From NCBI GenBank assembly GCA_030681615.1, contig JAUXSA010000056.1:1-64000 (forward strand): a stretch of 64,000 nucleotides of DNA, written 5' to 3'. How positions within the stretch are numbered: position 1 is the first letter of the stretch; every line of letters begins with the position of its first letter. Of this stretch, positions 1,709 to 20,646 are shown piece by piece. The position numbers and the translations under genes were made by a program. The notes beneath the pieces were generated by a model. That model did no database searches. It saw nothing but the letters and a program-made list of their open reading frames with translations, and had not been told where the DNA came from. The DNA comes from Bacteroidota bacterium (GTDB lineage: Bacteria; Bacteroidota; Bacteroidia; B-17B0; Aurantibacillaceae).

Positions 1709-2218
1709 CTATTTTTTTTGATCCCGTCTTATTGCGTAAACTAACTCATCAAGGTATTCTCCGTTCTTATATAAAGTTTTTTCAAACCGCGCTTCTAATG
1801 TAAAGCCTGCTTTTTGGAGTGCTTTTTGTGATGCTGTGTTCGTTCCAAATGGTCGGGCAAAGATCCTATCGATCTCAAAATTCTTAAAGCCATGGTCAAC
1901 CATTTGAATAATTGCTTTTGTAATTATGCCTTGCCGCCAAAATGGTTCTCCTAACCAGTAACCTAACTCAGCATTCTTGCCATGTATATCATCTTGCGGA
2001 TGAATACCAATACCTCCCACAGCCTGTCCTTGTATATCTATTGCAAAAAGACGAACGGGTGTGTGCTGCGCAGCGAAGGCAATGAAAGACTCTCCTTTCT
2101 CCTTAGTATACGGATGCGGAAATTTATCGGTCATAAATTTAGCAATGTCTTTATTGTTGCCAAATTTAATTAAACTATCGAGGTCATTAATGGTCCAGGG
2201 TCTTAGCGAGAAATTCAT
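1709..2218 (-). CDS. GNAT family N-acetyltransferase (RimJ/RimL-like)
   Basis: 169 residues, the standard size for a single GNAT domain. It starts with the family beta strand (FSLRPWTINDLDSLIKF). Motif A lies around GYWLGEPFWRQGIITKAI, where the usual acetyl-CoA loop R/Q-x-x-G-x-G/A is present in relaxed form as RQGIIT. The C-terminal part has N-T-ASQKALQKAGFTLEARFE, typical of the RimJ/RimL and ribosomal-protein N-acetyltransferase branch, where N-x-x-S is followed by GF. The substrate cannot be read from the sequence. It stands alone, 33 bp from the upstream barrel gene on the same strand, so cotranscription is possible. Confidence 0.9.
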   Translation of the reverse strand: MNFSLRPWTINDLDSLIKFGNNKDIAKFMTDKFPHPYTKEKGESFIAFAAQHTPVRLFAIDIQGQAVGGIGIHPQDDIHGKNAELGYWLGEPFWRQGIITKAIIQMVDHGFKNFEIDRIFARPFGTNTASQKALQKAGFTLEARFEKTLYKNGEYLDELVYAIRRDQKK

Positions 2219-2251
2219 AGAATGATAAGAAAAAAAAAGATAAAGAAAATT

Positions 2252-3193
2252 CTAGAACTTACTTCTTAATCTTGCACGTTTACGTTTTTGTTTAATAATG
2301 TAACCCACAGTTATTTCAAGTGAAACGTAAGAATCTTTTTGTCTGTCACCTCGTTGTGCGGCAACCCCGGAAGCGTCAGGTGATGTTGCTCCATAAATAA
2401 GGCCTTTACTTGGATCAGCCATTAGCGCAGATAGGGGGCCGTAATTTGTTGCCAATGCAGTTGAATCGTAGTAACTTGTTCCAACATCATCTATATAATC
2501 TGTAAATGTTTTACGCCACGCCACTTCAACGCCAACACTCCACTGTTTGTTAATGGTGCATTTATAAAATAAGCCAAGTGGTATGCAAACACTATAATTG
2601 GTGTATTTTTTTGGTCCGCCTTCCAGTCCTTGTCCTTCAGTACGTAGTGGCATTAATTTAATATATTTTCCGTTTGGGCCACGGCCTTTTGGATTATAAT
2701 AAAAACCACCAACGCCTGCAAATACAAAAAAAGCGTGGGCATTGGCTTTGTGCCTGCGGTTCAATGTTCTTTTAATACCATATCTGTTACCGGTTTTAGA
2801 GCTTTGATAACCTATCTCAACCCTTCCAGCAAGTTCAAAAATATTGGACTTAAAATTTAAATTCCTGTTATTCCTGTATGGTTCCTGGGTTAAAGCATCA
2901 TCACCTTTTACAATAAGATAATTAAATTTTGCAGTAACATTTATCCAGGTATCTAATTTATATCTGTAACCAAGACCGAAGGCAGTTTTTGTTTGAGAAA
3001 GTTCAAGATCTACAGGACTGTAATCTTTACCAATCTGGTCGCGGCCCCCAAGATCACCTAAAAAATTAGAAGTGCCACCAGTTATGAAAATTTCCTTCCT
3101 GTATTTTTTCCAATCACCCGGGCGCGTAAAATTCTGAGCCTCAGCAATTAGGACAAAAAAAGAAGGGATAAGTAAAAGTAGTACTTTTCTCAT
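2252..3193 (-). CDS. Outer-membrane beta-barrel protein, DUF6089-like
   Basis: 313 residues from ATG 3191-3193. This start gives a clean signal peptide, MRKVLLLLIPSFFVLIAEAQ; an upstream in-frame start would add a hydrophobic leader and is less likely. The mature part is built of alternating strands rich in Gly and aromatic residues, with FITGGTSNFLGDLGG near the N-terminus and FAGVGGFYYNPKGRGPNG in the middle, followed by LRTEGQGLEGG. That order resembles DUF6089-type outer-membrane barrels of Bacteroidota; this is recognition from memory, not a search. The C-terminus is unusually basic (KQKRKRARLRSKF) for a barrel. No ligand or partner is evident. Confidence 0.75.
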   Translation of the reverse strand: MRKVLLLLIPSFFVLIAEAQNFTRPGDWKKYRKEIFITGGTSNFLGDLGGRDQIGKDYSPVDLELSQTKTAFGLGYRYKLDTWINVTAKFNYLIVKGDDALTQEPYRNNRNLNFKSNIFELAGRVEIGYQSSKTGNRYGIKRTLNRRHKANAHAFFVFAGVGGFYYNPKGRGPNGKYIKLMPLRTEGQGLEGGPKKYTNYSVCIPLGLFYKCTINKQWSVGVEVAWRKTFTDYIDDVGTSYYDSTALATNYGPLSALMADPSKGLIYGATSPDASGVAAQRGDRQKDSYVSLEITVGYIIKQKRKRARLRSKF

Positions 3194-3285
3194 TAGGTTT
3201 AATCCAATAAAAATAAGGAAAAAAACGCAAAAGACCATGTACTTATTGATATATTTTTGAAAAGTCTACGTTAAGAGTTTTATAA

Positions 3286-4710
3286 CTAGTTAAAAAACAG
3301 TGCATTAAAGTTGAGTAAATATACTTTTTCGGTTGCTCTGGTAATAGCAGTATATAACCAGCGCACAAAATTCTCATCAATGTTCTCTTCTTTTAAAAAG
3401 CCCTGATCGATGAAAACTACTGGCCACTGGCCACCCTGGGACTTGTGGCAGGTTATAGCGTAACTGAATTTTACCTGTAATGCATTATAATATGGACTGC
3501 TTTTTAAATACGCCATGCGTATGCCCTTTGCCGGTTCATGACTCACATCGGCCATTACAGCCTGAAATAAGTGTTTTTGCTCTTCCTGACTTAATGCGGG
3601 ATTATCCGTAAAAAGTGAATCAGTAATTATTTTCACTTGTTGTTCCGGTAAATTAGGATAATCAATAAAACGTACCTGGCACTCACAAAAATTTAATCCG
3701 TATAAACTTTCACGGTTAACCATACGTGTTATTTCAGCCATATCACCATTTGCAATAAAGCCAGCCTCGCCATTATTTTCGGGTAACCAAAAATAATTAT
3801 TTTTTACAACCATTATTTTATCGCCGGTGCAAAGATCTTCTTCATAAAGTTTAATCCTGTTGCGAAAACTTTGGTTGAAGAGGTTGGCTCTTTTATTGCT
3901 GCGTGTAATGATCACCACGTTTTCTTCGCCGTACTTGGAAATGGCACTGTTTATGCAGTCTTCCAACTCATCACCCGGCAAATTAATAAAGTCTTTTCCG
4001 CAGATCAATTTTGGAAATTCAAAAACTTCCTGTCCAATACTATTACGAATATTTGTAGCATTCAATAAAATACCGCTCTCTAAACGTTGCCGGGCAACTT
4101 CCTTTAGTTCAAAAAAATTAATATTCAAATGAAAAGCCGTGCGTAAATAATTTTCATTCAATGCCGGACTTTCGTTACTACCCACGGGAGGAAGTTGCGC
4201 TGTATCACCTATAAGAATGAGTTTACAATTATCGCCACTGTAAACATATTCAAATAAATTTTCCAACAAACTGTTCATTAAACTTTCCCCACCCGAATCG
4301 GCACTAATCATCGAAGCTTCATCAACAATAAATAAAGTGTTCTTATGTAAATTCTCTGAAAGAGAAAAATAAAAAGCGCCATCTGCTCCAATTTGTTTTC
4401 TGAATATTTTTTTATGAATGGTTTGTGCTGCTTTTTGTGAATACATGCCCAACACTTTAGCTGCACGGCCTGTAGGAGCTAATAACACGCTACGCCATTT
4501 TATTATAGGCAATGCTTTTGTAAATGCAGAGATAAGATTTGTCTTACCGGTACCTGCATAACCTCTTAAAATAAAAACAGAACGCTCATCGGTATTTAAA
4601 ATAAAATCTGAAATTTTCTCTATAGCTGTTTTTTGATCTTCGTTGGCTATAAATGGTAAATATCCTGAAACTATTTTTCCGAGATCGTAGGGGGAATTTA
4701 TTTTTGACAT
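3286..4710 (-). CDS. RecD-like / Pif1-type superfamily 1 DNA helicase
   Basis: 474 residues. Walker A is GYAGTGKTN at 50-58, Walker B with the SF1 signature is VDEASM at 129-134, and motif III is IGDTAQLPPVGS near 172-183. The C-terminal UvrD_C_2-type motifs are YAITCHKSQGGQWPVVFID from 417 and WLYTAITRA at 451-459. The protein is therefore an ATP-driven 5'-3' translocase of the RecD/Dda/Pif1 group, acting on DNA ends or single-strand gaps. It is shorter than RecD2 and has no N-terminal HhH or OB part. No recB or recC lies nearby, so a free-standing role in repair is more likely than membership of a RecBCD complex. Confidence 0.88.
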   Translation of the reverse strand: MSKINSPYDLGKIVSGYLPFIANEDQKTAIEKISDFILNTDERSVFILRGYAGTGKTNLISAFTKALPIIKWRSVLLAPTGRAAKVLGMYSQKAAQTIHKKIFRKQIGADGAFYFSLSENLHKNTLFIVDEASMISADSGGESLMNSLLENLFEYVYSGDNCKLILIGDTAQLPPVGSNESPALNENYLRTAFHLNINFFELKEVARQRLESGILLNATNIRNSIGQEVFEFPKLICGKDFINLPGDELEDCINSAISKYGEENVVIITRSNKRANLFNQSFRNRIKLYEEDLCTGDKIMVVKNNYFWLPENNGEAGFIANGDMAEITRMVNRESLYGLNFCECQVRFIDYPNLPEQQVKIITDSLFTDNPALSQEEQKHLFQAVMADVSHEPAKGIRMAYLKSSPYYNALQVKFSYAITCHKSQGGQWPVVFIDQGFLKEENIDENFVRWLYTAITRATEKVYLLNFNALFFN

Positions 4711-10626: not shown

Positions 10627-11718
10627 CTACCCGCCAAAATTTTCTTTTATAAAGTTATTGATCGCCCTTATAGAAATCTCCTCTAATTTAGTGTGATAAG
10701 TGTTTACAGCCAAATTAAGGGTCTTAATATCCTTTAATTTATGTACCCCTTTTCTAAAATGGGTACTAATTGCATTTAAATAATCTTCAGAAATGCTTTG
10801 CTCGTATTTGCGGCCCCGTTTCTTAATATTTTGTTTTAAGTTATTTGTAGTGGTGCTCAAATGAATGATCAGATCGGGTTTTGGTAACTCTGCAAGCATC
10901 AATTTAAATTGTTCTTTAAAAAGCGAATAGTCTTTTGCTGTTAAATTAATTTTGGCAAACCATAGGCACTTATAAATACTATAATCGCTTACTATTAATT
11001 TTTTTTCGTGCTTAAATGCGTATTGCAATTGTTTAAATCGCGCTATTAAAAAACTATATTCTAATGGAAACGCAAACAGTTTTTTATTTTCATAGAATAA
11101 TGGTAATAAAAGATTGTCTTCAAATTCTTCAGGCAAAAAGGCGGCATTCATTTTTTTTGCTAAAGCCTTTGCCAGTGTAGATTTGCCGGAACCGATATTC
11201 CCTTCAACACAAATGTATCTTAAGTTTTTTGCAGCATCGTACTGTTTTACTGCCAGTTTATCTTTACTTTGTTTTAAAAGGGATTTAATTGTTTTTTTTA
11301 ATACAGGGTGTTTTAGTTCAGCGGCAATTTCACTTAATGGCTTTAAAACAAAATTACGCTGGTGCAAACGTGGGTGGGGGATCTCCATTTTTTTACCTGT
11401 ATGAATCTCGTCATTAAAAAATAAAATATCAAGGTCAATGGTCCTGTCGGTATTTTTTGTTGCATCTCTTTTTCTGCCCAGTTTTTTTTCAATAGCCAAT
11501 AAACCTTTTAATAATTTTGCAGCACTTAATTTGGTTTTTATCGCAATTACCTGGTTCAAATAATTATTTTGTGAATCGCTTCCCCATGCTGCCGTTTCAT
11601 ATATCCCAGATTGTTTGTTAATTTTCCCCAAATGCGCCTCTATGGCCTTTTTGGCTGCGGTCATATTTTCTATTCGGTTACCAATATTTCCGCCCAAACA
11701 TAAAAAAGCTACATTCAT
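10627..11718 (-). CDS. folK: Fusion: HPPK (FolK) + deoxynucleoside kinase
   Basis: 363 residues with two enzymes. Residues 1-150 are 6-hydroxymethyl-7,8-dihydropterin pyrophosphokinase (folate pathway): LCLGGNIGNR at the start and DRTIDLDILFF at 91-101 with the Mg-binding DxD, then PHPRLHQRNFVL. Residues 168-363 are a deoxyadenosine/deoxyguanosine-type kinase: P-loop EGNIGSGKS at 172-180, then FLPEEFEDN and the lid-region Arg segment KRGRKYEQ. Each half is full length, so this is a true fusion rather than a read-through. It is divergent from sppA. Coupling folate synthesis to deoxynucleoside salvage links two inputs of DNA precursor supply; this is inference. Confidence 0.93.
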   Translation of the reverse strand: MNVAFLCLGGNIGNRIENMTAAKKAIEAHLGKINKQSGIYETAAWGSDSQNNYLNQVIAIKTKLSAAKLLKGLLAIEKKLGRKRDATKNTDRTIDLDILFFNDEIHTGKKMEIPHPRLHQRNFVLKPLSEIAAELKHPVLKKTIKSLLKQSKDKLAVKQYDAAKNLRYICVEGNIGSGKSTLAKALAKKMNAAFLPEEFEDNLLLPLFYENKKLFAFPLEYSFLIARFKQLQYAFKHEKKLIVSDYSIYKCLWFAKINLTAKDYSLFKEQFKLMLAELPKPDLIIHLSTTTNNLKQNIKKRGRKYEQSISEDYLNAISTHFRKGVHKLKDIKTLNLAVNTYHTKLEEISIRAINNFIKENFGG

Positions 11719-11783: not shown

Positions 11784-13562
11784 ATGAAGCAGTTTTTTGG
11801 GGCATTTTTTGGATCGGTGATAGGAATAATTTTAGCTACTATTTTAACAGTGATCATCCTGGTTGGAGCAATTAAATCGAGTTTTGGTGGTATGGATACA
11901 AAAGATGAGAACGAAGTTTCTGTTGCCAAAACCAACTCTGTTCTAAAAATAGAACTTGATGGCGCGATCATTGACCGCGAAAAAGAAAATCCTTTTAAAG
12001 ATTTTGGAGAATTGGCTTCTCTTGCCAATAAAGGGGGGAACGGTTTAAATGTAATGCTTGACAAGATCTCTAAAGCTAAAACAGACGATAAGATAAAAGG
12101 TATTTATTTATATTCTAAAAATCTGGAAGCAGGTTTTGCTACCATCGAAGAATTAAGAAATGGCCTTGAAGATTTTAAAAAATCAGGAAAATTTATTTAC
12201 AGTTATGCCGAGTATTATGGCCAAAAAGAATATTACTTAGCTTCGGTTGCTAATAAGATCTTCTTAAATCCGCAAGGTGACCTTGATTGGAAAGGACTAA
12301 GCATGAGCCTGATGTTCTTTAAAAACGCTTTTGAAAAATTAGGAGTTGAAGTACAGGTTTTCCGTCACGGAAAATTTAAAAGTGCTGTTGAACCTTTTTT
12401 ATTGGATAAAATGAGCGCTTCTAACAGACATCAGTCCGAAACTTTTTTAAATAGTATCTGGAATACCATGATAACGCAGGTTTCAAAAGACAGAAAAATT
12501 TCAATTGAAGAACTTAATAAAATGGCAAACACGTTGCAGATCCGTTTTCCTGAAGATGCTGTAGGTAATTTGGTGGATGCGGCAGTTTATGAAGATGAAG
12601 TGATCTCTGAAATTAAAAAGAAAGTTGGCGTAGCAGAAAAAGAGAAATTGAATTTACTGGATCTTGAAAAATACGATCCAAAAGATAAAAAAGTAAAGGG
12701 TAAAGATGTTCAGAAAATTGCGGTTATATACGCCAGTGGCAGTATTAGCAGTGGAGAGGGCGATGATGATGAGATTGGATCTGATGCGCTTGCAAAAACA
12801 ATTAAAGAGGCGCGATTGGATGATAAGGTAAAAGCTATTGTGTTGCGTGTTAACTCACCAGGCGGAAGCGCTCTTGCCAGTGATGTGATCTGGAGAGAAG
12901 TAGTGCTTGCTAAAAAAGCAAAACCTGTTATTGTAAGTATGGGTAATTTAGCTGCAAGTGGTGGTTATTATATTAGCTGCGCGGCCGATCGTATCTTTGC
13001 GCAACCCAATACCATCACGGGTTCAATTGGGGTGTTTGGTATGATCCCAAATATTCAAAAAGCATTGGATCAAAAACTGGGAATTACAGTTGATACTGTA
13101 AATACAAATTTACACAGTGATGTGGGTGGTGCTTTAAGATCTGTTTCTGCATCCGAATACGATTATATTCAAAGTGGGGTAGAGAAGGTGTATGATGTAT
13201 TTACCAAACGCGTTGCAGAAGGCCGCAACATGAGTCAAGCCGATGTGGATAGCATTGGCCAGGGCCGTGTGTGGACAGGTTCTGATGCTTTAAAGATAAA
13301 TTTAGTGGATGAATTAGGCGGCTTAAATGATGCTATTGCTTACGCAGTAAAAAAAGCAAAATTGACCGATTACAAATTGGTTGAATTACCAAAACAAAAA
13401 AGTCCGTTTGATGCTTTCTTAGGTAAAAAAGAGACAGAATTAGAATCGCGCCTTATTAAAAAGAATTTGGGTATCTCTTATTCATACTTTAAGCAACTTC
13501 AAAAGATTTTAAATGTAAAGGGGATCCAGGCGCGCTTGCCTTTCGAAATGCTTGTAGAATAA
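11784..13562 (+). CDS. sppA: Signal peptide peptidase SppA, 67K type
   Basis: 592 residues, the size of the long (tandem) SppA. A membrane anchor lies at residues 8-30 (IGIILATILTVIILVGAIKS region). Two ClpP-like S49 repeats follow. The C-terminal one carries VLRVNSPGGSALASDVIW and the nucleophile region SMGNLAASGGYY (Ser 392), then ITGSIGVFG. The N-terminal repeat has EYYLASVANKIFLNPQGDLD and supplies the lysine in this family. SppA cleaves remnant signal peptides in the cytoplasmic membrane. It is transcribed away from folK/dNK, an arrangement I recall from other Bacteroidota. Confidence 0.95.
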   Translation: MKQFFGAFFGSVIGIILATILTVIILVGAIKSSFGGMDTKDENEVSVAKTNSVLKIELDGAIIDREKENPFKDFGELASLANKGGNGLNVMLDKISKAKTDDKIKGIYLYSKNLEAGFATIEELRNGLEDFKKSGKFIYSYAEYYGQKEYYLASVANKIFLNPQGDLDWKGLSMSLMFFKNAFEKLGVEVQVFRHGKFKSAVEPFLLDKMSASNRHQSETFLNSIWNTMITQVSKDRKISIEELNKMANTLQIRFPEDAVGNLVDAAVYEDEVISEIKKKVGVAEKEKLNLLDLEKYDPKDKKVKGKDVQKIAVIYASGSISSGEGDDDEIGSDALAKTIKEARLDDKVKAIVLRVNSPGGSALASDVIWREVVLAKKAKPVIVSMGNLAASGGYYISCAADRIFAQPNTITGSIGVFGMIPNIQKALDQKLGITVDTVNTNLHSDVGGALRSVSASEYDYIQSGVEKVYDVFTKRVAEGRNMSQADVDSIGQGRVWTGSDALKINLVDELGGLNDAIAYAVKKAKLTDYKLVELPKQKSPFDAFLGKKETELESRLIKKNLGISYSYFKQLQKILNVKGIQARLPFEMLVE

Positions 13563-13659
13563 TATTTAACAGGCTGAGGCTCAGGGAGTGCCCATAAGTT
13601 CCCCAAAATTTTGTTTTTAAGGTAAACTACCCTTATATTTATGTGTTTTAACCCATAAA

Positions 13660-16600
13660 TTGGATACACCAACCTTAAATAATTCTACCCTCGAAATTGA
13701 TGAATTAAATGCTAATGCGTGGAGTTTAAACCGCGAAAATGCACCTAAGTCAATTGAACTGGCCAATAAAGCTTTAGAAAGTTCTTTAGCCGCGAATTAT
13801 ATTAACGGTATTGCTAACGCTAAAAAAACACTCGGCGCCTGTCATGTTTGGATAGCCAAGAATGAAGATGCCGCCAATTATTGTTTTGAAGCCATCTCTT
13901 TATTCCAAGCATTAAAAGATAAAAAGAACGAATCAGAGACCAATTATATTTTAGGATCGAACTTTTTCTACCTCTCCGATTACGATACTTCCATCAAATA
14001 TTACAAAAAAAGCTACGACCTAAGTACTGAGATAGATTTTGAATTTGGTATGGCCGATGGCTTAAATGGCATGGGTACTGTATATTACACCATTGAACAA
14101 AATGATAGCGCTTTGGAGGTATTGACAAAAAGTGAAAAAATTTGCCGCCAACACGATCTTAAAAGCATTTTAATTAAAGTGTTGGATGGCCTTGGAGAGA
14201 CCTATTACAATTTAAAAGATTACAATAAAGCCCTTGATTATTATAACGATTGTTTAAATATTATTGCCGAATTAACCGGTAACTATAGGGTAGCAGCTTT
14301 TGCACTTGATGGACTTGGCAGGGCTTACACGGGTTTAAAACAATTTGATAAAGCCTTAGAAAAATTTGACCAGAGTTTAAAGATCCGCAAGGATATAGAT
14401 TTTAAATTTGGAGTTGCCACCACTTTAAACAACATTGGTAAACTATACATTCAAAAGGGCGAGAGTGCCAATGCTATAAAGAATTTAACCGAAGCATACG
14501 AACTGGCCATTCAGATCCACAGTAAAGAAGCGGCTTTTCAGGCAAGTGAAAAATTGGCAGAGTTATTTGAGAAGGAAGGTAATTCACAGGAGGCATTAAA
14601 ATACTATAAGGTTTTTCACCAGGCAAAAGAAGATGTACGTAATCATAAAAGCGCGCAGCTTTCAAAAAGTTTAGAGCTACAAAATAAAGTACTACAATCA
14701 CAAGCAGAAAAAGCAATTTTAGAAGAACGCGCCAAAGAACTTGAGAATTTTTCTGATAGTTTGGTGTTGATGCGTGAAGTTGGACAAAAGATCATTTCTA
14801 ATTTATCGGTTGCCACCATTGTAAACACAGTTTATAAAAGTGTTAACGGGTTAATGGATGCTACAGGTTTTGGTATCGCTATTTACAACCAGGAAGATAA
14901 TACTATTGTTTATCCGTTATACATTGAAGGTGAAGATCGTTTTGAGAATATTAAATACGAATTAGATGAAGATGATAGGTTAACCACTATTTGTTTTAAC
15001 CAGAACCGTGATATCGTAATTAATGATTACGAAAATGAGATCTCTAATTATCTTACAACAAAATCCTCTGCACCAAAAGCGGGTAAGGATGTTTCTTCCC
15101 TCATCTATCTTCCATTAAGGAACAAAGATGTGTTGTTAGGGGTAATGACCGTGCAAAGCTTTAACAAGAATGCTTACGGTAAATACCAGGTAAATATCTT
15201 TAAGAACCTTGCTACCTATACAGCTATAGCATTAGAAAATGCAAAGATGTACGAAGAGCAGGAACTTAAAGTTGCGGAAAGGACCAAAGAGTTAGTAAAG
15301 AGTAAAGAAGAAATTGAAAAGACCTACGAGAATAATAAAAAATTAAGCGAGATTGGTAAAGAAATTACTTCGAGTTTAAATCTTGGTAAGATCTTTAAAA
15401 AATTACATGCTTCCATAAAAGAGATCATGGAGGCCGATTGTTTTGGTGTGCGTCTTTACCGCCCCGATATTGGCGCGGTAGAATACAAATACGAAATAGA
15501 GAACGGTGTGTTAGATCAGGATGTGGCTACCATTCCTTTGACCGATGAAAATAACTACACCGTTTGGTGCGTTAAAAATAAGAAAGATATTTTCTTAAAT
15601 GATAACGTAAACGAGTATCAAAAATACGTTAAAGAGATCAGGGTAGTTGCTGGCGATATGCCTAACTCATTATTGTTTACACCTATGATGTTAGGTGAAA
15701 AAATAGTAGGTGTTATTACTGTGCAAAGTTTTAAAAAATTCGCATACCAATCGCACCACATTGATATTTTACGTACCCTTGGAACATATACTGCTATTGC
15801 TTTAGAGAATGCATACCTCTATGAGCATATGGAGGATAAAGTAAAAGATCGTACCAAAGAAATTGTAAAGCAAAAAGAAGAAATAGAAAAAACGTTTGAG
15901 AACACACGCTTGGTGAGTGAGATCGGGAAAGAGATCTCTACTACTTTTTCTATTGAAGATATTATTAGCAAAGTTTATAACAGCATCAATAAATTAATGG
16001 ATGCCACTATGTTTGGTATTGGTATTTACGATCCTGCAGCTAAGCGCATTAATTTTAGCGGAGTTTTGGAAGAGGGTGAAGTGCTGGAAGATTATTTTTA
16101 TGAACTGACCGATGTTGCGCGCCCCGCAGTATTATGTTTTACAAACCAGGAAGATTATGTTATTCATAATTTTACCGAAGAGTTTTTAAAGACCAATAAG
16201 ATCCTTAACCGTCATTCGTTACCGGGACGCAATACAGAGTCGATAATGTATATTCCCCTCACTCAAAATAAAAAGAAGATCGGGGTAATTACGGTACAAA
16301 GTTTTAAAGCGAACGCCTATAGTGATTATCATTTGCAATTAATAAAATCGGTAGCTACCTATGCGGCCATTGCTATTGATAACGCCTCGCTTTACACCAA
16401 CATGGAAACGCGTGTTGAAGAAAGAACGGCTGAAATAGAAAAAAATTATAACGATACCCGTTTATTAGGTGAGATCGCTAAAGAAATAAGTTCATCTCTT
16501 TCTATTGATACGATTATTTCTTCTGTTTATAAGAACATTAACCGTTTAATGAAAACGGATAGTTTTGGTATTGCTCTTTTTGATGCAAAAAAATACACTT

Positions 16601-18882
16601 TAGAGTTTAATGGCTTTATTGAGAATAATGAGAGAATTCCTGATTTTCAGGTAGATATTACTGATCTCAACCGCTTGGGCGCTATTTGTTTTCATAACAA
16701 AAAAGAAATTGTAATTAATGATTTTGTAAAAGAACATTCTAAATACATCACTTTAGAAAAGTTACCTGTATTTGGTAACGACACAGCCTCCATTATTTAC
16801 CTGCCATTGTATTCAAAGAGCGAAGTAATTGGTGTTATTACCGTTCAAAGCCTTGAAAAAGATGCTTACACCGATTATCACGTAAGTCTCCTTAAAAACT
16901 TAGTAGTGTCAATTGGTATTGCTTTAGATAATGCTAACTTATACCAAAACTTAGAAGATAAAGTAAACGAACGTACACTTGAAGTTGTAAAACAAAAAGA
17001 AGAGATCGTAAAAACATACGAGAACACACGTTTGGTAAGTGAGATTGGGAAAGAGATATCCAGTACTTTTTCTATTGAGGATATTATTGCTAAAGTATAC
17101 AAGAATGTAAATAAATTAATGGATGCCACTATTTTTGGAATCGGCATTTATGATGAAGAGAAGAATAGTATTGTTTTTGAAGGCGTAATTGAAAAAGGTG
17201 AAAAACTTGATGTGTTCTCTTATATGTTAACAGAAACGCACCGCCCGGCAATACAGTGTTTCAGAGATCAAAAAGAATATATAATAAATAATTATGCGAG
17301 AGATTACGGCCAAAATAAAGTTTCCGCAAAACAAGGCGAGTTGCCGGAGGGAATTATTTATGTTCCTATTACTCAAGGTTCAAAAAAGATCGGCGTAATT
17401 ACTGTACAAAGTTTTATACCAAATATTTATACTGATTATCATTTACAATTACTAAAAAGCCTGGCATTATATACTGCCATTGCTTTAGATAATGCTTCGT
17501 TATATAATAACCTCGAAGTTCGCGTAAAAGAAAGAACCGAAGAGATTCGTGTAGCTTACGAAAACACAAGGTTACTAAGTCAGATCGCTGAAGATATTAG
17601 CTCGTCATTATCCGTAGAAACTATTAACAGTAAAGTTTACGAAAACGTAAATAAATTAATGGATGCTACCATGTTTGGTATAGGTCTTCACAATCCTTTA
17701 AATGATCACTTAGAATTTAAGGGATTTATGGAAAACAACCAGGCCATGGAAGCTTTTTCATATCTGTCAAACGATCCAAACCGCCTGGCCGCACAATGTT
17801 TTACCAACCAAAAAGAAATTTTCATCAACGATTATTCGGTTGAGTATAAAAAATATATTAAAGGTATGCAGGCGCCGGTTTCGGGTAAAGATTCTGCGTC
17901 GATCATTTACATTCCTATTTTTTCAAAAGAAATTGCCATTGGTGTTTTAACAGTGCAAAGTTTTGAGAAAAATGTTTATACCGAATACCAGTTCAATATC
18001 TTAAAAACATTGGCTGTATCTGTTGGAATAGCTTTAGATAACGCTAACCTATATCAAAACCTGGAAGAGAAGGTAAATGAAAGAACGATGGAGGTTAATA
18101 AGCAAAAAGCCATTATCGAAGAAAAAAATAAAGACATAACCGACAGTATTCGTTACGCTAAAAAAATTCAACAGGCTATTGCACCAAATATTGACGAGTT
18201 CAATAAAAATTTTGTAGACTCTTTTATTTTATACAAACCAAAAGATATTGTTTCCGGCGACTTTTATTGGTTCGAGCATTTTGGTGATACTACTGTTTTT
18301 GCCGCAGCCGACTGTACAGGCCACGGGGTGCCGGGTGCATTTATGTCGCTTATTTGTAGTGATATTATGTACAAGGTAATTAACGACCAAAAAATAACCT
18401 CTCCGGCTATCGCCTTAAAGGGTATTGACGAAAAACTGGTGCAGTTAATTAAAAAGAGTTCAGAAGCAGCAGCAAATGATGGAATGGATATTGCATTGTG
18501 CGCTTATTCAAAAAATGATAATGTTTTAAATTATGCCGGCGCCCATCGTCCGCTTTTAATTATACGTGGTAACGAGATATTAGAATACAGACCAAATAAA
18601 TTCTCTATTGGTGGCCATTCAACCGAAGGAAAACATTTTGACCTCAATCAAATTGAAGTTTTCCCGGGTGATCAGATATACTTAGTTACAGATGGTTATG
18701 CCGACCAGTTTGGCGGTGATAAAGGCAAGAAATTTAAATTTAAGAATTTAAAAGATTTGATCCTTGCTAACTCATCCAAACCAATGCACCAACAAAAAGA
18801 GATCATCGATCTTGCTTTTGAATCATGGAAAGGCGGTCTCGAACAGGTAGATGATGTTTGTTTGATCGGTGTGAAAATATAG
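13660..18882 (+). CDS. TPR - six GAF - SpoIIE/PP2C phosphatase signalling protein
   Basis: 1740 residues, soluble. Residues 10-330 are TPR repeats (for example YDTSIKYYKKSYDLSTE, YNKALDYYNDCLNI). A coiled linker leads to six GAF domains beginning near 363, 560, 750, 934, 1124 and 1303, spaced about 188 residues apart and joined by short coiled coils (VxERTxEI). Each has the pattern EIxKEISS-FSIEDII-LMDAT-FGI and ends IGVITVQSF. The SpoIIE-type PP2C domain at about 1488-1740 keeps the metal ligands in DFYWFEHFGDTT, AADCTGHGVPGAFMSL, VTDGYADQFGG and VDDVCLIGV. Such proteins dephosphorylate anti-anti-sigma proteins in response to a ligand; no partner STAS or RsbW-like gene is nearby. The start is TTG at 13660: the frame is open only from 13621 and no ATG precedes the TPR. 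Confidence 0.9.
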   Translation: MDTPTLNNSTLEIDELNANAWSLNRENAPKSIELANKALESSLAANYINGIANAKKTLGACHVWIAKNEDAANYCFEAISLFQALKDKKNESETNYILGSNFFYLSDYDTSIKYYKKSYDLSTEIDFEFGMADGLNGMGTVYYTIEQNDSALEVLTKSEKICRQHDLKSILIKVLDGLGETYYNLKDYNKALDYYNDCLNIIAELTGNYRVAAFALDGLGRAYTGLKQFDKALEKFDQSLKIRKDIDFKFGVATTLNNIGKLYIQKGESANAIKNLTEAYELAIQIHSKEAAFQASEKLAELFEKEGNSQEALKYYKVFHQAKEDVRNHKSAQLSKSLELQNKVLQSQAEKAILEERAKELENFSDSLVLMREVGQKIISNLSVATIVNTVYKSVNGLMDATGFGIAIYNQEDNTIVYPLYIEGEDRFENIKYELDEDDRLTTICFNQNRDIVINDYENEISNYLTTKSSAPKAGKDVSSLIYLPLRNKDVLLGVMTVQSFNKNAYGKYQVNIFKNLATYTAIALENAKMYEEQELKVAERTKELVKSKEEIEKTYENNKKLSEIGKEITSSLNLGKIFKKLHASIKEIMEADCFGVRLYRPDIGAVEYKYEIENGVLDQDVATIPLTDENNYTVWCVKNKKDIFLNDNVNEYQKYVKEIRVVAGDMPNSLLFTPMMLGEKIVGVITVQSFKKFAYQSHHIDILRTLGTYTAIALENAYLYEHMEDKVKDRTKEIVKQKEEIEKTFENTRLVSEIGKEISTTFSIEDIISKVYNSINKLMDATMFGIGIYDPAAKRINFSGVLEEGEVLEDYFYELTDVARPAVLCFTNQEDYVIHNFTEEFLKTNKILNRHSLPGRNTESIMYIPLTQNKKKIGVITVQSFKANAYSDYHLQLIKSVATYAAIAIDNASLYTNMETRVEERTAEIEKNYNDTRLLGEIAKEISSSLSIDTIISSVYKNINRLMKTDSFGIALFDAKKYTLEFNGFIENNERIPDFQVDITDLNRLGAICFHNKKEIVINDFVKEHSKYITLEKLPVFGNDTASIIYLPLYSKSEVIGVITVQSLEKDAYTDYHVSLLKNLVVSIGIALDNANLYQNLEDKVNERTLEVVKQKEEIVKTYENTRLVSEIGKEISSTFSIEDIIAKVYKNVNKLMDATIFGIGIYDEEKNSIVFEGVIEKGEKLDVFSYMLTETHRPAIQCFRDQKEYIINNYARDYGQNKVSAKQGELPEGIIYVPITQGSKKIGVITVQSFIPNIYTDYHLQLLKSLALYTAIALDNASLYNNLEVRVKERTEEIRVAYENTRLLSQIAEDISSSLSVETINSKVYENVNKLMDATMFGIGLHNPLNDHLEFKGFMENNQAMEAFSYLSNDPNRLAAQCFTNQKEIFINDYSVEYKKYIKGMQAPVSGKDSASIIYIPIFSKEIAIGVLTVQSFEKNVYTEYQFNILKTLAVSVGIALDNANLYQNLEEKVNERTMEVNKQKAIIEEKNKDITDSIRYAKKIQQAIAPNIDEFNKNFVDSFILYKPKDIVSGDFYWFEHFGDTTVFAAADCTGHGVPGAFMSLICSDIMYKVINDQKITSPAIALKGIDEKLVQLIKKSSEAAANDGMDIALCAYSKNDNVLNYAGAHRPLLIIRGNEILEYRPNKFSIGGHSTEGKHFDLNQIEVFPGDQIYLVTDGYADQFGGDKGKKFKFKNLKDLILANSSKPMHQQKEIIDLAFESWKGGLEQVDDVCLIGVKI

Positions 18883-18888
18883 TTTTTC

Positions 18889-19008
18889 AATGGAACACGG
18901 ATTTAACGGATTATACTGGTTTACACAGATAATTTTTTTAAACGACATTGATCTGCTAAAAAAATCTGTGAATATCCGCTCAATCAGTGTCATCTGTGTT
19001 CGGTCACG
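18889..19008. repeat. Dispersed ATCTGTG/GCGGAT intergenic inverted repeat, copy A
   Basis: The left arm (ATGGAACACGGATTTAACGG from 18890) pairs imperfectly with the right arm 18974-19001. The reverse complement of the right arm reads GAACACAGATGACACTGATT then GAGCGGAT and recurs at 32631-32658 with one change. It fills the gap between the phosphatase and TPM genes. Confidence 0.7.
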
Positions 19009-19035
19009 TCGCTAGTGTCCCATTTAATCCCGACT

Positions 19036-20646
19036 ATGTTAATTAAAAAAATAATATTATTAATTCTTATTTTAATCGCTGTAGATCTTTTCAGTCAAAA
19101 AGCATTCATTCCCGAACCGACATTAAACGTAATAAGCGATTTTGAAAAACTTTTAACCGAAGAAGAAATAGGTATTCTTGCTAAAGACATTAAAGGCGAG
19201 TATAATTCTAACTCCAACCAATTAATAATCGTTACCATTCCTACAAGTTATTTGGGGAATTTAACCATAGAAGATTACGCGCAACAATTATTTGATAAAT
19301 GGAAGCCAGGACAAAAAGGTTTAAATAACGGCGTACTCGTTATTATTGCAGGTTCTAAAATTGACAGTATTGGCCGGAAGTTGCGTATCCATACAGGTTA
19401 TGGCATTGAAGGTGCTTTGCCGGACCTGCTCTGCAGCAGAATTGAAAGAGAAATGATGGTTCCTGAATTAAAGAAGGGAAATTATTATAAAGCCATAAAA
19501 AATGGCGCGGCATCTATCTTAAATTTTATAAGTACAGAAAATATTGGTAAAGTGCCGCAATATAAAATTGAAATATTAAAAAGTGGTGACCTGGTTTACG
19601 ATTATGCCCGAATATTTACCGATGAAGAAAAAAAGAATTTAGAAGATGCGCTGCAGGGTTCTTTTAATTCCGAGAAACATGTTATTGTTACCGAGATGCA
19701 GACCGGTTATACATCCAATTACGTTTCTATTTACTCAAGGTATAATTACGATACAACGCTTATGAAAATAGCTTTTAATCCAGGGTATTATACGGATGAA
19801 AAAGATTCTATCTTGAAATTTGATGCAGCAAGAAAAAATTATTACGTAGGTTATGGTACCAGCTCTGACGAGTATGACTTTAACGATTATAATAAATTAT
19901 ATGAAGTGAGTAAAGTTTACCAAGCTAAAATTGCAAGTGCCGGTATTTACGCTGTTTGTATGGAATTTATTGCCAATGAAAAAGTTGCTTATGTAAAACA
20001 ATTAACCGGTTTTCTTTGGATCCTTGGTTGGCTATTTTCTGCTACTGTTTTTGTTTTTATTATTCATTTGCTTACTAAAAACTATAAGAATAAACCCAAA
20101 ACAAAAAAACCAATGGCCATAAAAGTGCCGCTTGGTATTGGTTTAATAGCCATTATTATCTATTCAGTACTAAGCCTGGTTTCACTGGAGATAGTGTATT
20201 ACCTAACCTTTACCTCGTATATTAACCTAAGCTCATTTATGACCGTGATGATGATGATCGCATTGGCCACCTCGCACGTGTTAAATTTTATTTTTGTTTA
20301 TAAGATCGACGCAAATTATTTTGACTCAAAACTATTAAGCTGGATGGGTAAAGGTGGTGGAGGAAGTGGCAGCAGCTATTATAATTCTTCTTCCAGTTCA
20401 TCCTCTTCTTCCAGTTCGTCCTCTTCAAGTTCTTCCAGCAGTAGCTCCAGTTCATCTTCTAACGGTGGCTATTATGGCGGCGGTGGCAAATCCGGTGGTG
20501 GCGGTGCAAGTAGTACTGGTAAACAAACGAACTATGTACTTAGTTATTGGAGCCGTGGGAAGGGAGGCATTATTGAGTTCGTTAGGAAGTATGATTGTAA
20601 AATAAAAGCGTCTATCCTTTATTTTTTTCCTAAGGATATCTTATAA
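19036..20646 (+). CDS. TPM-domain membrane protein with polyserine tract (YgcG-like)
   Basis: 536 residues from ATG 19036, giving the signal peptide MLIKKIILLILILIAVDLFS; a GTG 21 bp upstream lies in the repeat element. The TPM_phosphatase domain (about 25-165) has NVISDFEKLLTEEEIG, KWKPGQKGLNNGVLVIIAG and IHTGYGIEGALPD. A second, divergent TPM-like copy follows (VYDYARIFTDEEKKNLEDAL from about 193). Two membrane segments lie near 330-350 and 370-395, then a tract of about 26 Ser at 20386-20460 flanked by Gly-rich runs. Family members often end GG-S-rich, but here a further 40 residues follow and overlap the neighbour by 28 bp on the opposite strand, so the C-terminus may be extended or shifted. 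Role unknown; some relatives act in membrane protein assembly. Confidence 0.8.
   Translation: MLIKKIILLILILIAVDLFSQKAFIPEPTLNVISDFEKLLTEEEIGILAKDIKGEYNSNSNQLIIVTIPTSYLGNLTIEDYAQQLFDKWKPGQKGLNNGVLVIIAGSKIDSIGRKLRIHTGYGIEGALPDLLCSRIEREMMVPELKKGNYYKAIKNGAASILNFISTENIGKVPQYKIEILKSGDLVYDYARIFTDEEKKNLEDALQGSFNSEKHVIVTEMQTGYTSNYVSIYSRYNYDTTLMKIAFNPGYYTDEKDSILKFDAARKNYYVGYGTSSDEYDFNDYNKLYEVSKVYQAKIASAGIYAVCMEFIANEKVAYVKQLTGFLWILGWLFSATVFVFIIHLLTKNYKNKPKTKKPMAIKVPLGIGLIAIIIYSVLSLVSLEIVYYLTFTSYINLSSFMTVMMMIALATSHVLNFIFVYKIDANYFDSKLLSWMGKGGGGSGSSYYNSSSSSSSSSSSSSSSSSSSSSSSSSNGGYYGGGGKSGGGGASSTGKQTNYVLSYWSRGKGGIIEFVRKYDCKIKASILYFFPKDIL

Follow-up and report, generated by a model that had tools for sequence, protein, structure and literature searches.

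A SpoIIE-type phosphatase gene of a Bacteroidota bacterium carries a GAF array that probably grows and shrinks by pairs of domains

Six GAF domains in one chain ahead of a single phosphatase raise the question of how such an array was built and whether its growth obeys a rule of signaling. The gene lies in the window, i.e., the whole stretch of 64,000 nucleotides of a Bacteroidota contig analyzed here, and corresponds in the list of open reading frames to an ORF at 13660-18882 (plus strand, as are all its features below) encoding 1740 residues from a TTG start, in a region that lines up by eye with ATG-started relatives. Pfam profiles match TPRs, six GAF stretches (GAF_2, 248.7 bits over the 6 stretches, above the cut-off) and a SpoIIE/PPM domain at residues 1543-1739 (62.1 bits for a curated cut-off of 25). 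The window genome has 9 GAF_2 matches, 6 of them in this gene. The N-terminal TPR region (13717-14694, about residues 20-345 with outer limits set by eye, and best stretches of the Pfam TPR families at residues 175-322) is followed by GAF1 (14767-15255), which occupies a fixed first position and falls into one GAF1 clade in all 43 relatives by tree and nearest-GAF comparison, and by GAF2 (15337-15825), whose central half is the best conserved among the GAF classes compared.

Behind GAF2 stand two copies of a unit, delimited by the self-match of the gene and by domain identities. The first (15904-17025) comprises GAF3 (15904-16401), a linker of 18 residues (16402-16455), GAF4 (16456-16950) and a linker of 25 residues (16951-17025), and the second (17026-18129) comprises GAF5 (17026-17511), again a linker of 18 residues (17512-17565), GAF6 (17566-18060) and the start of the helix leading to SpoIIE. 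This last signaling helix and the phosphatase entry (18061-18285) have an ERT motif at the start of the helix and appear as a long helix (H708-783) in a low-confidence model; the Pfam SpoIIE match itself covers 18286-18876. As side observations, 10 terminator-like sites occur at 13400-19100, for 3.4 +/- 2.1 in shuffles, which is probably codon-driven, and two neighboring ORFs were read by eye. That at 10627-11718 (minus strand) resembles a fusion of FolK (HPPK) with a deoxynucleoside kinase, of a type known in Bacteroidota. That at 19015-20646 (plus strand) is TPM-like and contains, close to its C-terminus, a stretch of about 27 serines; its nearest relatives match at 64-82% over part of the length.

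The first-pass annotation had proposed, from motifs and by eye, that GAF3 resembles GAF5 and GAF4 resembles GAF6, that the DNA at 15.9-17.0 kb is highly similar to that at 17.0-18.1 kb, and that a two-GAF unit of about 370 residues was duplicated; on all three points it proved right. Amino acid identity reaches 60.3% for GAF3/GAF5 and 56.3% for GAF4/GAF6, for 33.7-46.9% in the remaining 13 GAF pairs, and the strongest diagonals of the self-comparison are offset by 370 and 374 residues. The best self-match of the gene joins its positions 2133-3340 to 3255-4450 (window 15792-16999 and 16914-18109) with 66.2% DNA identity over 1218 alignment columns (E 5e-80), far beyond chance, whereas neighboring GAF units match at about 67-70% but over 140-200 bp only. 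In a per-domain alignment, the linkers after GAF3 and GAF5 are devoid of seven residues present in the other linkers. Furthermore, a tree of GAF domains places GAF3 and GAF5 in one internal odd-position clade and GAF4 and GAF6 in one internal even-position clade, so that the phylogeny, suggested earlier as a check, upholds the duplication. An assembly artefact was ruled out: the gene lies inside a 90-kb contig, the copies differ at one third of their bases, and the six-GAF form recurs in several independent genomes.

A survey of GAF number in orthologues had also been suggested, and the number does vary, from 2 to 12. Searches for the array matched 22 of 40 genomes of the genus (threshold 1e-20), 44 of 87 of the order (1e-30; all 87 belong to one family in this collection) and 30 of 395 genomes drawn from the class (1e-80). 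Loci were fetched for 42 of the 44 matching genomes of the order (all but G085 and G087) and for 19 of the 20 matching genomes of other families (all but G303), and GAFs were counted with a profile built from the GAFs of the window gene and iterated on relatives. The full-length set comprises 43 proteins whose TPR and SpoIIE parts are complete; 23 proteins with at least two GAFs and one with a single GAF were set aside because their N- or C-terminal part fell outside 350-415 or 265-285 residues, respectively. Among those set aside are fragments at contig ends (G029, G099, G105) and proteins of other architecture. Among the 43 proteins, 2 GAFs are found in nine, 3 in two, 4 in ten, 6 in sixteen, 7 in one, 8 in two, 10 in two and 12 in one, i.e., an even number in 40 and an odd one (3, 3 and 7) in three. 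The two-GAF form is likely ancestral, since it occurs in several families of the class and since both of its GAFs group with GAF1 and GAF2 of larger arrays. A tree of the TPR and SpoIIE parts requires at least 12 changes of GAF number, and at least 2 changes of parity. The seven-GAF protein (G028) matches an eight-GAF array minus GAF2, with a linker of 14 residues at the joint. On the same contig of that genome a second copy of TPR-GAF1 starts downstream, and the end of a copy lies on another contig (L092, L093). A contig of G007 (C21, L096) carries a second, broken copy, with an open part of 680 residues comprising two GAFs and with stop codons in the match. Gene neighborhood at the loci tested was of little help: sppA lies upstream in the clade of the window gene and in some relatives, not in others.

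The tree comprised 110 GAFs from 18 genomes, the odd-numbered proteins of G028, G096 and G109 being left out, and resolves into five clades with 28 odd, 23 even, 33 (32 of them even), 23 odd and 3 odd positions. Clade thus matches the parity of the position for 109 of 110 GAFs, the exception being GAF3 of G054. In a larger set, with the three odd-numbered proteins again left out, a GAF and its nearest neighbor from another genome at a different position number agree in parity in 198 of 202 cases. Within genes of at least six GAFs, the best partner lies at an even distance for 97 of 120 domains (50.0 expected), a share lowered in part by GAF1 and GAF2, which have no near copy. In the 110-GAF tree the odd-position clades stay separate, which gives no support to one A-B pair as the source of all the pairs.

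The linkers are as regular as the positions. Across the 43 proteins, 169 of the 172 GAF-GAF linkers have 25 (122) or 18 (47) residues, a difference of seven, or one heptad, and lengths of 14, 7 and 0 occur once each. Sixty further linkers, from the 23 proteins set aside, have lengths of 14, 18, 21, 25, 28 or 32, so that all 232 lengths equal 0 or 4 modulo 7, although lengths within a co-evolving family are not independent events. In contrast, the GAF core length varies by -3 to +2. The 18-residue linkers follow odd-position GAFs in 45 of 47 cases; the other two are in G028, where positions are shifted by one owing to the absence of GAF2. The stretch after the last GAF measures 273-275 residues in 37 of 43 proteins. 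The seven-residue gap is also present in a MAFFT alignment of 19 pairs, which is independent of the profile. Measured between regular-expression anchors, 143 of the 172 linkers gave 33 (85), 26 (44), 36 (10), 32 (twice), and 22 and 15 (once each); because this measure missed 29 linkers, the profile-based lengths were used.

Residues 7-9 after the GAF core read ERT or DRT in 143 of 172 linkers and xRT in 168 of 172, as do 41 of 43 last helices for xRT; as a control, [ED]RT occurs 191 times in all 67,394 residues. S-helices are marked by ERT in the central heptad and have been proposed to restrain downstream domains until an upstream sensor changes, and the S-helix paper sets such helices apart from inter-GAF linkers (passages of PMC1592074 on this motif). 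In this family, judging from the motif and its place, S-helix and inter-GAF linker coincide. An S-helix has about 40 residues and forms a parallel dimeric coiled coil between signaling domains; in predicted models, the helices between domains are long and stand at the S-helix place, these models being monomers of modest confidence.

Why, then, are GAF numbers even? We lean toward a mutational by-product, in which, after the first duplication of a pair, homologous recombination can align similar copies two domains apart only, and selection does not act on parity. High DNA similarity exists at the two-domain distance only (66% over 1.2 kb), domain repeats commonly expand by several domains at once and in mid-array (PMC1553488, in the part that deals with such expansions), and two single-GAF losses, in the 3-GAF clade and in the 7-GAF protein of G028, have survived, which means that odd numbers are tolerated at least there. 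Alone, this process leaves unexplained why growth went by pairs from the outset (2, then 4) and why linkers change by heptads only. Another reading is a functional parity, in which the state of the coiled coil is turned or inverted by each GAF with its signaling helix and only even changes keep the sign of the output; this we consider unlikely. The 40 even numbers among 43, with 2 parity changes as the minimum among 12 or more shifts in number, agree with it, as does the known inversion of sign by a change of register in the engineered YF1, whose light response was reversed by a single extra residue (PMC6798134), but forms with 3 and 7 GAFs exist with intact phosphatase parts, and neutral recombination accounts for the same counts. 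It is doubtful that the array obeys an even-number rule, under which a pair with one short and one long helix would be the minimal unit whose gain or loss preserves the sign or phase of the signal reaching the phosphatase, and sensor number would be tuned in twos, up to twelve. At present, neutral recombination is the more likely reason for the even numbers.

Six GAF sensors had further been suggested to allow many ligand inputs to one phosphatase. We divided each GAF into outer parts (the first helices together with the last strands, helix and linker) and the remaining central half, which lines the ligand pocket in other GAFs. GAF3 and GAF5 are 73% identical in the outer parts and 32% in the central half, and GAF4 and GAF6 61% and 47%. 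Between species, for GAFs with 70-75% identity in the outer parts, mean central identity is 65% for GAF2 (27 pairs), 42% for GAF1 (10 pairs), 46% for internal odd (68 pairs) and 48% for internal even GAFs (66 pairs). GAF2 thus looks fixed and the other GAFs diversified; since the center of GAF1 is variable too, this variability is not special to the duplicated GAFs. The divergence of the central halves fits many inputs, with putative ligands. Residues E56, G107, P117, G126, Q131 and A160 have a frequency of 1.0 in 215 GAF cores of all classes. The NKFDE residues, which we take to be those of one type of cyclic nucleotide-binding GAF, are not matched: the family has Q-S (Q131 at 1.0, S132 at 0.98 of the 215 GAFs) and Y at the places of N-R and F in 5w10. 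A cyclic-nucleotide GAF of this type was therefore rejected, and the motif comparison leaves room for other ligand modes. The Cys of a C-F sequence is present in 201 of 215 GAF cores of the family (those of the window gene span 14767-18060) and sits in a helix of the pair model; it is a possible ligand, metal or redox site.

The model of a GAF pair, folded as a monomer (mean pLDDT 73.6, pTM 0.44), has its best structural matches in the tandem GAFs of PDE5, PDE2, PDE6 and CyaB2. Against 3lfv (Z 21.5, rmsd 15.3 over 328 residues) the domains fit singly and their relative arrangement does not, and single-GAF structures match at Z 16-20 with an rmsd of 2.0-3.4, as expected for the GAF fold. A longer model of GAF3-6 with SpoIIE (pLDDT 59.5, pTM 0.31) is too poor for domain packing. 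Most GAFs could instead be structural, the array being a spacer rod for distance or dimerization in which one or two domains bind a ligand. The variation of array length by species, up to 12 GAFs, and the fact that GAF2 alone keeps its center as well as its outer parts (the 65% above) speak for such a rod, but the invariant core residues in all classes are those of folded, working GAFs, and free spacers should decay; on balance this reading appears improbable.

The one earlier claim that failed concerns age, as the pair was said to have been duplicated recently. GAF3 of the window gene groups with GAF3 of G061, G012 and G007 (support 97/94) and not with its own GAF5, which groups with GAF5 of G007 (100/100). 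Forcing GAF3 and GAF5 of the window gene and of G007 together costs 45.35 log units and is rejected (p-AU 0.0045), the constrained group having been named after the tree had been seen. Furthermore, dN between the two pairs is 0.34, for 0.30 to the G023 orthologue (a 61% identical protein), synonymous sites between the pairs are saturated, and the 3-4/5-6 pattern is present in relatives at 60-96% identity. Tree, AU test and dN with saturation thus make the pair duplication old relative to the species compared. Recent duplication, to which the closeness of GAF3 to GAF5 and of GAF4 to GAF6 within the gene had pointed, is extremely improbable and already refuted by this evidence, save under strong gene conversion between species that is specific to GAF position. 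A distinct last GAF (clade support 100/99) exists in G054, G008, G033, G081, G021, G002, G080, G012 and G061; this clade has no member in the window gene, where GAF6 belongs to the internal class. The simplest reading, by parsimony and not as proof, is that the lineage of the window gene lost a terminal pair from a longer array.

At the output end, the best solved relative of the SpoIIE domain is 6k4e (E 5e-33). The motifs GDFYW, DCTGHG, TDG and DD, which presumably form the acidic metal site of SpoIIE/PPM phosphatases, are invariant in eight sequences and aligned with 6k4e; for the two leading residues of A-A-A-D and for the V that precedes TDG, the reading was made from the sequence list. 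In the window gene they stand in SGDFYW (18253-18270, just upstream of the Pfam match), AAADCTGHG (18301-18327), VTDGYAD (18685-18705) and QVDDVCL (18844-18864). The same genome has 63 SpoIIE matches above the cut-off, about 58 genes having a near-complete domain by count from the listing, and one STAS gene, RsbV-like with an SSG motif (17365-17676 of contig C90; L136), as well as one stand-alone RsbW-type ATPase of 139 residues (20220-20582 of contig C168; L137). Phosphatase, STAS antagonist and HATPase kinase, the genes of an RsbU/V/W module, are thus all present in one genome; no genetic linkage of the STAS and RsbW-like genes to the phosphatase gene was seen there. STAS matches occur in 38 of 40 genomes of the genus, mostly as a single small ORF accompanied by others of SulP size. 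Dimerization through a coiled-coil linker switches RsbU and its relatives, and RsbZ of Clostridioides difficile has two GAFs ahead of its phosphatase, according to the sections of PMC12143880 on these proteins. The phosphatase described here probably acts on the single RsbV-like STAS protein of its genome.

Taken together, we consider with a probability of roughly 70% that the protein is a modular sensor rod, gaining and losing pairs of GAFs in register and passing signals through serial signaling helices to one PPM phosphatase that probably acts on an RsbV-like STAS protein. The direct support for this reading lies in the architecture, the pair duplication, the variation in number, the linker steps, the ERT motif, the catalytic motifs and the presence of STAS and RsbW-like genes. 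The chain would descend from a two-GAF protein, TPR-GAF1-GAF2-SpoIIE, that persists in other families of the class; it would have become longer or shorter as two-GAF units within the array were duplicated or deleted in register. The transmission apparatus, i.e., the outer helices of the GAFs and the linkers, would be held constant, with helix-compatible length steps of mostly seven, while the central half of the GAFs, the putative pocket lining by analogy with known GAFs, diverges. As for the protein itself, we infer a cytosolic, probably dimeric rod, with the TPRs as a probable protein docking site, each GAF joined to the next by an ERT-type signaling helix, and the last helix entering the SpoIIE/PPM serine phosphatase. 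Ligand signals, in the direction inferred, may travel along a continuous coiled coil and be summed at the phosphatase, which would most likely dephosphorylate the one RsbV-like STAS protein as its substrate.

On these grounds the gene product would resemble a long RsbZ, a GAF-coiled coil-phosphatase receptor. Like RsbZ of C. difficile, it combines tandem GAFs with a PPM phosphatase and an output by partner switching on a STAS protein, but RsbZ has two GAFs and no TPR is mentioned in the cited sections (PMC12143880), whereas here the GAFs come in pairs, number up to 12 and are separated by ERT helices. Like the S-helix, the linker has ERT at a fixed place between signaling domains, is built of heptads, and corresponds to a proposed switch against constitutive activation; unlike the S-helix as described in the cited part of PMC1592074, it follows nearly every GAF, in series up to 12 times. 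As in PadC and in LOV/PAS receptors, linker lengths mostly differ by multiples of seven, and a -4 class is known there, but those receptors, as the cited portions present them, have one sensor-to-effector linker per protein (PMC9587094, PMC6798134), and here the rule covers every linker of a single array, with an alternation that follows domain parity. Domain repeats likewise gain several domains in one step in mid-array, a process described as mainly eukaryotic (PMC1553488) and here concerning a bacterial sensor array. Finally, a helix connecting two consecutive GAFs is shared with PDE2/5/6 and CyaB2, except that the consensus has no NKFDE-type residues where aligned with 5w10. What is new is the combination, a chain of S-helix-linked GAF pairs varying from 2 to 12, each principle being already known; a narrow open-access search, which does not imply absence, brought up no publication about paired GAFs in SpoIIE proteins.

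The family thus offers a natural series of one receptor, with 2, 3, 4, 6, 7, 8, 10 and 12 GAFs, in which sensor number changes and TPR, linkers and output are constant. Such a series allows one to test whether the survival of sensor insertions is limited by the phase of coiled-coil linkers in series, and how many inputs a single coiled coil is able to sum. Furthermore, if functional, about 58 phosphatase genes for one STAS partner would possibly represent an extreme fan-in of partner switching.
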